The notes under the pieces were generated by a model. The model saw nothing but the letters and a program-made list of their open reading frames with translations, had not been told where the DNA came from and did no database searches. The translations under genes and the position numbers were made by a program. Below, one piece after another: positions 32,328 through 54,336 of a DNA stretch of 64,000 nt. Each line of letters begins with the position of its first letter. Positions within the stretch are counted from its first letter, which is position 1. The DNA lies in assembly GCA_937944385.1 (NCBI GenBank), contig CALDYQ010000047.1:61000-124999 (forward strand), given 5' to 3'. This DNA comes from an uncultured Burkholderiales bacterium. Its GTDB lineage: Bacteria > Pseudomonadota > Gammaproteobacteria > Burkholderiales > Casimicrobiaceae.

Positions 32328-33245
32328 TCAGTGTGTCCTCGCCCCCATCGTGCGCGCCAGTGCCGCGAGGCGGTCGACCGACCGCCCGGCCGACGAGAGC
32401 GCGGCCAGGGCAGCAATGGCTGCGTCGGTCAGACGGGCGGCCTCGGCCCGCGCACCGTCGATGCCGAGCAAGGACACGAAGGTCGGTTTGTCATCCGCGG
32501 CATCCTTACCGGCGGTCTTGCCCAGGGTCGCTGTGTCGGCCGTGGCATCGAGCACATCGTCGATGACCTGAAAGGCGAGCCCGAGGGGCTGTGCGAAGGC
32601 GCGCAGCGCCGCAATCGTGCTCGCCTCGGCCTCGATCGCGATCGCCGGCAGCACGACGGCCGCCTCGAACATTGCACCGGTCTTGAGCCGGTGCATCTCG
32701 GTGAGGGCGTCGAGGGTCATCGCCCGGCCGACGTTGGCCAGATCGATCGCCTGCCCGCCCGCCATGCCCGCCGCGCCCGAGGCCTGTGCAAGCTCCGCCA
32801 CGGCACGGATACGCCCCACCGCGCTGGCCGGCATGGCGGTGAGGGCGGCGAAGGCGAGCGGCTGCATCGCGTCCCCCGCGAGCATCGCGGTGGCTTCGCC
32901 GAACACGACGTGATTGGTCGGCTTGCCGCGCCGGAGGGCGTCGTCATCCATGCAGGGCAGATCGTCGTGGATGAGCGAGTAGGCGTGGATCAGCTCCACC
33001 GCGACGGCAGCGTGATCGGCCACTTCGGCGCTCGCCCCCACGGCCTCGGCGCTTGCGTAAGCGAGCAGGGCCCGAAGCCGCTTGCCGCCACCCAGTGCGC
33101 CGTAGCGCATGGCTTCGAGCAGCCGCCCGGCAAACAGCTCACCTGCGGGCAGGGCCCGGACGAGGGCGGACTCGACGCGGGCGCGATGCGCGTCGCACCA
33201 GGCGGCGAAGTCGGACGGCGAATCTGTGCAGGACGTCAAGCGCAA
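32328..33245 (-). CDS. ispA: Polyprenyl/farnesyl diphosphate synthase
   Basis: [29 protein letters not shown] and [11 protein letters not shown] Asp-rich motifs; upstream of dxs. Confidence 0.96.
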
Positions 33246-33305: not shown

Positions 33306-33698
33306 CTAGGGAGACTGGCGCCGGCCGGTGGCAAGTCCCGAGGCTGGGTCGCGGCTGCTTGACGGCGCACCCGCCGGACATCCGCTGCCTGGGGCAGCGC
33401 CGCCTTCGAGGCCTTCCTCGTTGACCGTGATGTCAGTGCTGCGAGCGGTACCCCCAGCTCCGACCACGTAGCCGCGGTTCGACCCTTGCCTGCGACTTGC
33501 CCCTGGCGCAGGCTTCTCGTCCTCGATCTGCAGAAAGAAGTCGGCGGCGCGTGTGGAGGGCCGGGGGCAGTCGGTGGCTGTGGCACCGCTGTTCCTCGCG
33601 TTGGAACGCGAGGTGTTGATTCCTGCGGCATCGGCGGCGGCCGACAGGGCGAACGCGGAGAAGGCGAGGGTCAGGGTAAGGCGGCTGCGCGAATTCAT
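33306..33698 (-). CDS. Small secreted protein of the sigma factor/S8 protease locus
   Basis: Signal peptide MNSRSRLTLTLAFSAFALSAAADA then GINTSRSNARNSG...; same strand, last of four genes between ispA and the sigma factor. Confidence 0.6.
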   Translation of the reverse strand: MNSRSRLTLTLAFSAFALSAAADAAGINTSRSNARNSGATATDCPRPSTRAADFFLQIEDEKPAPGASRRQGSNRGYVVGAGGTARSTDITVNEEGLEGGAAPGSGCPAGAPSSSRDPASGLATGRRQSP

Positions 33699-33811
33699 GG
33701 CGGTTCCTTTCGGTGAGGCGCGGGCGGCGGTCACCGCTGCCCGTGTGCTGCTTTGTCGTTCGCGGCGAGCGGTTTCTTCACGCCTCGTCGGGAAAAGTCA
33801 GCGATAACGCC

Positions 33812-35041
33812 TCACCAGAGGAGTGCACCGCAGCCGAACACCGGGTCGCGCCCTGGAGGCCCGAGATCCCGAGCGCGAGCGCAGAGCGCACCCAGCGCGA
33901 CGGGTTCGCCGCGGGCGGCGGCCCAGGCGAGGCGTGCGGCCACGATGGGGGCGGCGAAGGAGGTGCCGCTCACATACCGCCCCCCGTCGAGCGGAAGCCA
34001 GAGTTCCACCCCCGGGGCGGCGAGCGCGATGTAGTCGCCCCGGTTGCCCCGGTCGTACGGCCGGTCGGCCGCATCATGGGCGGCCACCGCTATGACGCCG
34101 GGCCATGCCGCCGGGTAGACCGGTGGCGCTTCTGGCCCTGCGTTGCCTGCAGCAGCGACGAGCACGAGCCCGCGGGCGAGCGCGCGCTCGACGATCGCCC
34201 TTTGCACGGTATCCCCCGCCCCGCCAAGCGAGAGATTCACCACCGGAACACGCAAAGCCAGCAGCCGGTCGAGCGCCTGGGCCAGCCCAAGCGTGGAGCC
34301 GCGCAGACGATCGCCGGGGGCGCGCCCGAGAATCGCGATCAGCGTGATGTCTGCCTCGGGCAGCAGACCGCGGAAGCCGCTTCCCGCATCCGCGCGGCAG
34401 GCGAGCAGGCAGAGCACGGCGTCGGCATGCTCGTGACCTGGTGCATCGCCATCGAAGCGCTCGATGCGCAGCGTCCCGGCCAGCGGCAGGTCCTGGCTCG
34501 GCGCGGCATCGATCACGCCAAGCCGTGGCCGTCCGCTCTGGGGCGAGGGCATCGGCGTCGGCAACCGGATCGCGGCTGCGGCGTAGAGCCGCGCGGGCAA
34601 GCCCTGCTGCGGGTCGAGCCAGGCCATACGATCCACGACCGCATCCGGCAGCGCCCGTGCGAGCGCGTCGACCACCGCCGATTCGGCTCCGGGTTCGACC
34701 GCGAATTCGACGAGCGTGAGATCCAGCGCCTCGAGCCGGAATCGGGCCGCCTCGCGGGCCTCGGGCACCCGAGTCGTCTCGACCGTGGCGTTGGCACCCT
34801 CCCTCAGCATGATCACGCGGCCGGGGACGTGGGGCCCGCCGGGGTCGGTCTGTGCGCCGCCCAGTCCTGGCGCGAGCAGACGAAAGAGAATCCCGAGGTC
34901 GAGCGTGACACCGACGCCGGCGCGCGGGGGCGCTGACGGGCGAGGTGCATCCGGTTTGCCTTGCGCCAGTCCGCCCGGGCTTGCGATGGCGAGGCTCAGG
35001 CCGAGCAGGGCAGCGAGTGCCGCAGTCCGACGAGCGCGCAT
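33812..35041 (-). CDS. S8 family (subtilisin-like) serine peptidase
   Basis: Signal peptide; LGVIDAAP (Asp), GHEHADAVLCLL (His), VNLSLGG, VAAAGNAGPEAPPVYPAAWPGVIAVAA (oxyanion Asn), SGTSFAAPIVAARLA (Ser). Confidence 0.9.
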   Translation of the reverse strand: MRARRTAALAALLGLSLAIASPGGLAQGKPDAPRPSAPPRAGVGVTLDLGILFRLLAPGLGGAQTDPGGPHVPGRVIMLREGANATVETTRVPEAREAARFRLEALDLTLVEFAVEPGAESAVVDALARALPDAVVDRMAWLDPQQGLPARLYAAAAIRLPTPMPSPQSGRPRLGVIDAAPSQDLPLAGTLRIERFDGDAPGHEHADAVLCLLACRADAGSGFRGLLPEADITLIAILGRAPGDRLRGSTLGLAQALDRLLALRVPVVNLSLGGAGDTVQRAIVERALARGLVLVAAAGNAGPEAPPVYPAAWPGVIAVAAHDAADRPYDRGNRGDYIALAAPGVELWLPLDGGRYVSGTSFAAPIVAARLAWAAARGEPVALGALCARARDLGPPGRDPVFGCGALLW

Positions 35042-35042
35042 C

Positions 35043-35591
35043 TCACGGCTCGACCGAGACCGCCTCGACGAGGGGCGACGCGCGCAGGCGGGCGAGCGCC
35101 GCCTCGCGGTCCGTCCGGGGCACGCTCACACGCCAGAGCCCGAGTGCGCTCGGCCCGCCGACGAACTCGCCGCCTGCCTCCATGACGAGCCGACCCGCCT
35201 CGGCGAGCGGCACGCCGGGCCGAAAGGCGAGCGTGAGGATGCTGCGCTCGGCCGGTACCGAGACGCCGGGTCGGCCCGACAGCGCCTCGAGCGAGGGCTC
35301 GCCCGCGTCGGACCAGAAGCCGCGCGGCGTGAGGCCGATCACCGCGAGCGCGGCCGCGGCCCCGAGCGCGAAGCCCCAGCCGCCGACGAACCAGCTTGTG
35401 CGGCGCCCGCGGGCTGCCGGTGCGTCGGTGCGTCGCGTTGCGGCTGCCCACTCGCGTTCAGCACGGATGCGCGCCTCGAGTCGCGCCTGCGAGCGCGCGG
35501 GATCGAAAGGCGGACTCGCGGCCCGCAGCATCTCGGCGGCGCGGGCATGCCAGGCGTCGTCACGGTCTGGGAGAGTGGAGCGCTCGTTCAT
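35043..35591 (-). CDS. Putative anti-sigma factor, one TM with protease prodomain-like periplasmic region
   Basis: About 60 aa charged cytoplasmic part, TM WGFALGAAAALAVIGL, C-terminal ILTLAFRPGVPLAEAGRLVMEAGGEFVGGPSALGLWRVSVPRTDREAALARLRASPLVEAVSVEP; between ECF sigma and S8 protease genes. Confidence 0.7.
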   Translation of the reverse strand: MNERSTLPDRDDAWHARAAEMLRAASPPFDPARSQARLEARIRAEREWAAATRRTDAPAARGRRTSWFVGGWGFALGAAAALAVIGLTPRGFWSDAGEPSLEALSGRPGVSVPAERSILTLAFRPGVPLAEAGRLVMEAGGEFVGGPSALGLWRVSVPRTDREAALARLRASPLVEAVSVEP

Positions 35592-35623
35592 GTTTGCTCT
35601 GTCGGATGATGGCCGCCGTTTCT

Positions 35624-36178
35624 TCACGCGCTGCGCTCGAGGCAATCCCGAAGCCGCCGCTTGGCGTGATGAACGCGCGTGGCGGCGGTGTTCTCGGGGA
35701 TTGCAAGCACTTCGGCCACCTCGCGCAGCTTGAGCCCATCGACCACGTGCAGCCAGAAGGCATCACGCTGCGGGTCGGGCAGTGCGTCCACACAGTCGGA
35801 CAGGCGCTCGGAGGTCTCGCGGGCGAGCAGCCGCTCGAATGGATTCGGTGTCGTTTCGTCGGCCAACTCGGCGCTGTCCTCTGCGTCGAGCGGATCGGTG
35901 CCGAGCCGGCCGCGGGCCCGCAGCCTGTCGAGCGCCTTGTGGCGGGCGATACCGAAGAGCCAGGTGCGCACGCTCGCGCGGCCCTCGAAGCGCGCCGCCA
36001 GCCGCCAGACGTCGTAGAACGTCTCCACGACCACGTCCTCGGCCTCGCCGACCTCGTCGAGCATGCGATGGACGAAGCGAAACACCGCCGTGGCGTGACG
36101 GTCGTGCAGCGCCGTGAGCGCGCGCTCATCGCCGCGGCCGATGGCCGAAATCAATTCGGCATCGGAGCGCGCCTCCAT
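35624..36178 (-). CDS. ECF-subfamily RNA polymerase sigma factor
   Basis: Region 2 (LHDRHATAVFRFVHRMLDEVGEAEDVVVETFYDVWR...RTWLFGIARHKALDRLR) and region 4 (LPDPQRDAFWLHVVDGLKLREVAEVLAIPENTAATRVHHAKRRLRDCL). Confidence 0.93.
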   Translation of the reverse strand: MEARSDAELISAIGRGDERALTALHDRHATAVFRFVHRMLDEVGEAEDVVVETFYDVWRLAARFEGRASVRTWLFGIARHKALDRLRARGRLGTDPLDAEDSAELADETTPNPFERLLARETSERLSDCVDALPDPQRDAFWLHVVDGLKLREVAEVLAIPENTAATRVHHAKRRLRDCLERSA

Positions 36179-36435
36179 CAGCCCGCTCCGCCGCTGTTCC
36201 CGGGCAAGGGCGCGAGCATCTCCCCCTCGAGCACGCGCACCTGTTGCTCGACCTGGGCGAGCTCGCCTTGCGCGTACTTGATCAGCTCGGCACCGCGCTT
36301 GTAGGCGGCGAGCGATTCGGCGAGCGGCAGCTCCCCGCGCTCGAGTTGCCCGACGAGGGCCTCGAGTTCCGCGAGTGCGGCCTCGAACGTCGCGGGGCTG
36401 GCGGGGGCGTCGGGTTTTGCAGCGGCCTTGGCCAT
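36178..36435 (-). CDS. xseB: Exodeoxyribonuclease VII small subunit
   Basis: TFEAALAELEALVGQLERGELPLAESLAAYKRGAELIKYAQGELAQVEQQVRVLE. Confidence 0.95.
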   Translation of the reverse strand: MAKAAAKPDAPASPATFEAALAELEALVGQLERGELPLAESLAAYKRGAELIKYAQGELAQVEQQVRVLEGEMLAPLPGNSGGAG

Positions 36436-53733: not shown

Positions 53734-54336
53734 ATGAGTGCCCCCTTCAGCCTGCCCCCGCTGCCCTATGCCGACAATGCGCTCGATCCGCTGATCTCGG
53801 CCAATACCATCGGCTTTCACTACGGCAAGCATCACAAGGCGTATCTCGACAATCTCAACAAGCTCGTCGAAGGCAAAGACCTCGCGCAGATGTCGCTCGA
53901 AGAGGTGATCCGCGCCTCCGTGGGCAAGCCCGACATGACCGGCGTGTTCAACAACGCCGCGCAGGTCTGGAACCACACGTTCTACTGGAACAGCCTCAAG
54001 CCAGGCGGCGGCGGCAAGCCGGGCGGCACGCTCGGCGCCATGATCGATGCGTCCTTCGGTGACTATGACACCTTCCGAAAGGAATTCGCCAATGCGGCGA
54101 TGACCCAGTTCGGCTCGGGCTGGGCCTGGCTCGTCAAGGATGGCGACAAGCTGGCCGTAACGAAGACGGGCAACGCGGAGCTGCCCATGACGCAAGGCAA
54201 AAAGGCGCTCCTGACGATCGACGTTTGGGAGCATGCCTACTACCTCGACTATCAGAACCTGCGCCTCAAGTACGTCGAGACGCTCATCGACAGGTTGATG
54301 AATTGGGACTTTGCCGAGAAGAACCTCGCAAGCTGA
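53734..54336 (+). CDS. sodB: Superoxide dismutase [Fe]
   Basis: FSLPPLPYADNALDPLIS; HYGKHHKAYLDNLN; NNAAQVWNHTFYWNSLKP; IDVWEHAYYLDYQN. Confidence 0.95.
   Translation: MSAPFSLPPLPYADNALDPLISANTIGFHYGKHHKAYLDNLNKLVEGKDLAQMSLEEVIRASVGKPDMTGVFNNAAQVWNHTFYWNSLKPGGGGKPGGTLGAMIDASFGDYDTFRKEFANAAMTQFGSGWAWLVKDGDKLAVTKTGNAELPMTQGKKALLTIDVWEHAYYLDYQNLRLKYVETLIDRLMNWDFAEKNLAS

Follow-up and report, generated by a model that had tools for sequence, protein, structure and literature searches.

What are the genes for an ECF sigma factor, a membrane protein and a subtilisin-like protease doing between xseB and ispA, and do they belong together? The question is raised by a stretch of 64,000 nt of DNA from an uncultured Burkholderiales bacterium, here called the window, in which the minus strand reads, in transcription order, xseB, ECF sigma factor, anti-sigma-like membrane protein (asf), S8 subtilase, ispA and dxs. 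The features to which we refer are as follows.

36178..36435, minus strand: xseB, the 5' border of the insertion (TIGR01280 above cut-off)
35624..36178, minus strand: ECF sigma factor, 184 aa (PF04542 E=5e-15, PF08281 E=3e-14, TIGR02937 above cut-off)
35043..35591, minus strand: asf, anti-sigma-like membrane protein, 182 aa (single TM; sigma gene alongside in most relatives)
35052..35246, minus strand: subtilase-prodomain-like domain of asf, residues 116-180, beta-alpha-beta-beta-alpha-beta (AF2, Foldseek, PF22148 in relatives, hhalign)
33812..35041, minus strand: S8 subtilase, 409 aa (PF00082 E=5e-17)
34508..34510, minus strand: catalytic Asp178 of S8 (Asp in 47/47 S8, alignment A4)
34427..34429, minus strand: catalytic His205 of S8 (His in 47/47 S8, alignment A4)
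34142..34144, minus strand: oxyanion-hole Asn300 of S8 (AAGN), retained in the window
33959..33961, minus strand: catalytic Ser361 of S8, in GTSFAAP (Ser in 47/47 S8, alignment A4)
33306..33698, minus strand: small "secreted protein" ORF, unsupported as a gene (codon score about 0, no homologue)
32328..33245, minus strand: ispA, the 3' border of the insertion (NF045485 above cut-off)

The three genes between the borders are co-directional and close-packed. The ATG of the sigma gene overlaps the TGA stop of xseB by one base, and the asf stop lies 1 nt from the S8 start, so that the sigma factor and S8 are probably translationally coupled. Sigma-70 regions 2 and 4 are both above their Pfam cut-offs in the sigma factor, with no further regions in its 184 aa, the domain content of an ECF sigma factor. 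Codon-usage scores of sigma, asf and S8 are normal. An earlier note on this DNA had counted four genes here; these three stand, and the fourth, the small secreted protein, is rejected on its neutral codon score (-0.007 per codon, against 0.17-0.30 for its neighbours) and its lack of homologues. Its GC3 is 0.75 (0.80-0.87 in the neighbours), no convincing homologue rose above noise, and the nearest relative has no such ORF at this locus. The 75 nt near the ORF start that match Duganella (L176) were discounted, as they span the ribosome-binding site and the start of the signal peptide. In the sister genome, the short spacer of the window is replaced by two plus-strand ORFs between S8 and ispA (L031:4528-6155), one of which has a weak CsgG-like match.

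The earlier note had also attached significance to the position inside an isoprenoid cluster, a view that comparison with congeners does not bear out. In 14 congeneric genomes xseB is followed directly by ispA, and sigma-asf-S8 intervenes only in the window's genome and in the closest relative of that genome (G016); the location is therefore incidental and offers no functional clue, and we reject a functional tie of the module to isoprenoid synthesis. Three congeners (G002, G007 and G010) have the same three genes in a different genomic place, and in a fourth (G014) the S8 gene lies at a contig edge. The window and the sister genome both have the three genes as uninterrupted, intact reading frames, at 60-69% identity and with conserved catalytic residues.

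If the location is incidental, the association of the three genes is not. A neighbourhood search for co-occurrence, suggested in the earlier note for the ECF sigma/anti-sigma/S8 signalling module that it proposed, found conserved linkage from both ends: both sigma and S8 adjoin the anti-sigma gene in 39/50 loci retrieved with the profile of the anti-sigma outer domain, and asf and sigma are adjacent to S8 in 74 of the 80 named loci retrieved with an S8 profile. The other six comprise three at contig ends and three in which asf and S8 occur without a recognised sigma gene. With no more than about three S8 genes in the window's genome, and with such an anti-sigma gene missing beside eight unrelated S8 loci that the first search retrieved, linkage at these frequencies excludes a chance association. 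The order and orientation of the genes differ among lineages while the set remains together, and we conclude that it is kept as a unit across many Proteobacteria. It is also accessory: the profile A1, built on the TM and outer domain of asf, matched the sensor domain in only 20 of 250 genomes sampled from the order and 31 of 399 from the phylum. Querying genome contigs with the single window S8 protein retrieved no relatives; a query with an alignment succeeded.

The neighbourhoods vary in several ways. A gene for a putative porin of the TorF/Gcw_chp family follows S8 in 65/80 named loci (L137-L216) and is missing in the window; in 28 named loci a further gene family comes after the porin gene, with TIGR03118 in the member scanned. 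At L121:4354-6811 the anti-sigma gene is on the opposite strand to sigma and S8, the trio still lying together. At L137, L143 and L149 (and at L036-L038), in genomes akin to the window's family, the anti-sigma and S8 genes are paired but no sigma gene was recognised beside them. At G000:C25:27398-27599 the S8 match is split between two reading frames, in pieces that overlap, which may reflect a disrupted S8 gene or an error in sequencing. Two loci (L110:6383-7351 and L130:5950-6756) have sigma and a prodomain-bearing anti-sigma followed by a gene for a secreted caspase-domain (C14) protein in place of S8, a possible partner swap, and some prodomain-bearing anti-sigma genes have neither an S8 nor a caspase-domain gene alongside. 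One contig labelled Thermoanaerobaculia (L170; Acidobacteriota MAG) has the same gene set, so the module may reach beyond Pseudomonadota.

The asf protein consists of a short N-terminal part (about 65 aa), one TM at about residues 69-87, and a periplasmic C-terminal domain. This agrees with its earlier description as a single-TM protein devoid of the HxxxCxxC zinc motif; the motif is absent in the window asf and present in 71/78 named relatives, and it is missing from many class I anti-sigma domains (PMC7406223). The N-terminal part has no Pfam match and only a weak match to the anti-sigma model NF052375 (3.6e-5, below cut-off).

The identity of the periplasmic domain rests on several lines of comparison, which bear out the suggestion of a prodomain on the anti-sigma protein. 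PF22148, the fervidolysin N-terminal prodomain family, matched 31/41 relatives' domains at E<=0.1, and one full-length relative anti-sigma above cut-off (E=6e-9). The model found no match in the window asf or elsewhere in the window's genome; the window's sensor domain is too diverged for it. Searching PDB sequences with the sensor profile yielded no useful match. The AlphaFold (AF2) model of the asf domain, with a mean pLDDT of 87 (core 91-97), shows the same beta-alpha-beta-beta-alpha-beta order as subtilisin propeptides, and its top Foldseek match is pro-subtilisin E (3whi). Target-normalised TM-scores are best for subtilisin propeptides among the listed Foldseek matches (TMt 0.72-0.73 at 2.2-2.3 A for chains 2z58_B and 3cnq_P). 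Other ferredoxin-like folds are also listed, and the Foldseek E-values are modest (about 2e-3, none below 0.001); taken alone, the fold match is therefore no proof. That gap is closed by a sequence link: in trimmed, deeper alignments, hhalign matches the asf domain to the prodomain regions of adjacent S8s with P=1.2e-5 (prob 81%), while all seven negative controls (three catalytic-domain segments, two sigma segments, the anti-sigma N-terminus and reversed prodomains) gave P of 0.08 or worse. An earlier comparison of untrimmed alignments had been weak (prob 17%). By alignment and modelled fold, the periplasmic domain of asf is a subtilase prodomain homologue, akin to the partner S8's own prodomain. 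Once the last strand is complete (VEP), the window asf terminates; it has no counterpart of the tail that fills the active site in pro-subtilisins.

The S8 protein itself has a signal peptide, a prodomain-like region at about residues 74-135 and a catalytic domain at about 172-407, modelled as a subtilisin fold (Foldseek to subtilisins, E about 1e-13). While the window retains its oxyanion-hole Asn, the S8s of the large Massilia/Sphingomonas/Dyella clade (L137-L216) keep Asp/His/Ser and have this Asn replaced, usually with a conserved Asp at the position before it; the GN motif is found in 3/80. Such proteins may be weak or slow proteases, or receptors.

Some features of regulation can be read from the relatives. 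A promoter-like motif, [TA]GAACC-N15-GGTAT, precedes sigma at a single fixed spacing in 24/73 named loci (within L138-L205); in a looser form it occurs in 26/73, whereas shuffled sequences average 2.3. It recurs downstream of S8 in four loci (L164:6803, L172:6899, L175:6835 and L179:6871), where it precedes genes for secreted proteins, which suggests a small regulon. No TGAACC/GGTAT motif was found upstream of the window sigma, the sole match in the window being off-spacing and distant (at 54320), and the window sigma may depend on transcription from xseB. The window's genome also encodes the site-2 protease RseP (312 bits, over cut-off).

How do these genes compare with known systems? In ECF26 of S. 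meliloti, rpoE6-ecfR6 is divergent from a serine protease gene, SMa0142, that is activated by RpoE6, and the divergent arrangement of ECF/anti-sigma and serine protease genes is reported to be widely conserved in ECF26 (PMC6180224). The window genes share with RpoE6-EcfR6 an ECF sigma, a single-TM anti-sigma and an adjoining S8-type gene: on pSymA, the S8 ORF beside and divergent from the sigma ORF (S8 profile E=3e-65) was equated with SMa0142 by position and profile. They differ in being co-directional, in the TGAACC-type motif of the window's relatives as against the ECF26 -35 motif GGAATA, and in the prodomain-like sensor of the anti-sigma, whose profile had no match among the ORFs of the pSymA stretch or of a similar Aminobacter locus. 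A subtilase gene near an ECF gene is likewise known from ECF54 contexts, where subtilase and CHAT genes occur near sigma factors that, unlike that of the window, have no anti-sigma factor (review, PMC8999054). The association of S8 with ECF genes is thus already known, and the earlier note's view of an undescribed system may hold only for the prodomain-bearing anti-sigma, the apparently new part; it was not found in the literature searched, which is weak evidence since many subscription or restricted-licence papers fell outside that scope.

Subtilases with an I9 or fervidolysin-type prodomain (PF22148) resemble the window proteins in prodomain fold and sequence family and in their intact Asp/His/Ser; what sets the window apart from such subtilases is a second copy of the prodomain, carried by a different membrane protein in fusion with an anti-sigma part. 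As in RpoE-RseA with DegS and RseP, a membrane anti-sigma would presumably be cut in the periplasm and then by RseP, the differences being that the candidate site-1 enzyme is an operon-encoded S8 subtilase rather than an HtrA protease and that the sensor is prodomain-like. To our knowledge, RsiV-SigV of Bacillus subtilis lacks a prodomain and is not accompanied by a partner protease gene. In that system (PMC4183432), lysozyme is reported to bind RsiV directly, leading to destruction of the anti-sigma, with the site-1 cut made by signal peptidase; an anti-sigma outer domain that binds an enzyme is the likeness to what we propose here.

Based on these observations, we suggest, with a probability of roughly 0.5, that the genes encode a transmembrane module in which S8 binds the prodomain-like sensor of asf and, on a signal, cleaves or releases it, freeing sigma. 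The ECF sigma would be held by the single-pass anti-sigma, whose periplasmic sensor would be a duplicated subtilase prodomain, and the exported S8 catalytic domain would dock on it in the manner of a subtilisin on its own prodomain. At rest, the latched S8-sensor complex would keep the anti-sigma intact; a periplasmic signal would free or activate S8 (its own prodomain removed), the sensor would be cut or pulled away (site 1), RseP would complete the breakdown of the anti-sigma in the membrane, and the freed sigma would transcribe its own operon, protease included. Binding, the direction of control, cleavage, the signal and the regulon are points that we infer from kinship and linkage; the predicted structure now lends support to control of the anti-sigma by the protease, which is plausible. 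Four features of the window asf count against this reading, namely its short N-terminal domain, lack of a zinc motif, lack of an active-site tail and failure to match PF22148. Also weighing against it are the sparse occurrence of the sensor domain among the genomes sampled, the replaced oxyanion Asn in the large clade, the two loci where a caspase-domain gene stands in for S8, and the promoter motif not found upstream of the window sigma.

The evidence has to be weighed against other arrangements of the same parts. S8 may act as a receptor that latches the prodomain copy, with unlatching by a ligand or stress, not necessarily proteolysis, switching sigma; we hold this only tentatively, and it would explain why the large clade keeps both Asp/His/Ser and the linkage yet loses the oxyanion Asn. 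If true, it would represent a previously undescribed sensor class, a protease prodomain duplicated onto an anti-sigma factor. Subtilisin prodomains act as foldases and inhibitors, and the prodomain of the anti-sigma could instead chaperone or inhibit the exported S8 in trans, its occupancy reporting S8 outside the cell, so that S8 would be the output or target of an export-homeostasis loop. SMa0142 is among the strongest RpoE6 targets in S. meliloti (PMC6180224), an S8 gene being divergent to a sigma gene there and the order in the window operon-like, all of which fits such a loop; we nevertheless consider it unlikely, as a trans foldase seems redundant where S8s appear to carry a prodomain of their own, and the close pairing of asf and S8 suits a regulator equally.

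That the C-terminal domain is a general prodomain-fold sensor for another ligand, with S8 merely a co-regulated neighbour, seems distinctly improbable: S8 stands alongside most such anti-sigma genes, and the profile matches S8's own prodomain where controls fail, with propeptides giving the best target-normalised TM-scores among the matches listed, although in its favour the ferredoxin-like fold is common, the Foldseek E-values are modest, and some anti-sigma genes have a caspase-domain gene, or neither partner, alongside. The reduced N-terminal domain, the absent zinc motif, the promoter motif not found, the missing porin gene and the insertion inside a housekeeping operon might also be read as decay in the window's lineage, a shortened anti-sigma no longer controlling sigma and the module being held by transcription with xseB. 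We think this very unlikely for genes that are intact in both genomes, with conserved catalytic residues and normal codon scores at 60-69% identity.

Site-1 proteases and signals are known for only a minority of ECF/anti-sigma pairs. Because a candidate protease, a putative binding site in the prodomain copy and the promoter motif of the relatives can all be read from this operon, the proposed module, in which S8 acts on the sensor of asf, is open to direct test. The pairing of an anti-sigma bearing a PF22148-type domain with an S8 subtilase also provides a signature that is easy to search for and occurs across many genomes of Massilia, Duganella, Sphingomonas and Dyella and of rhizobial type.
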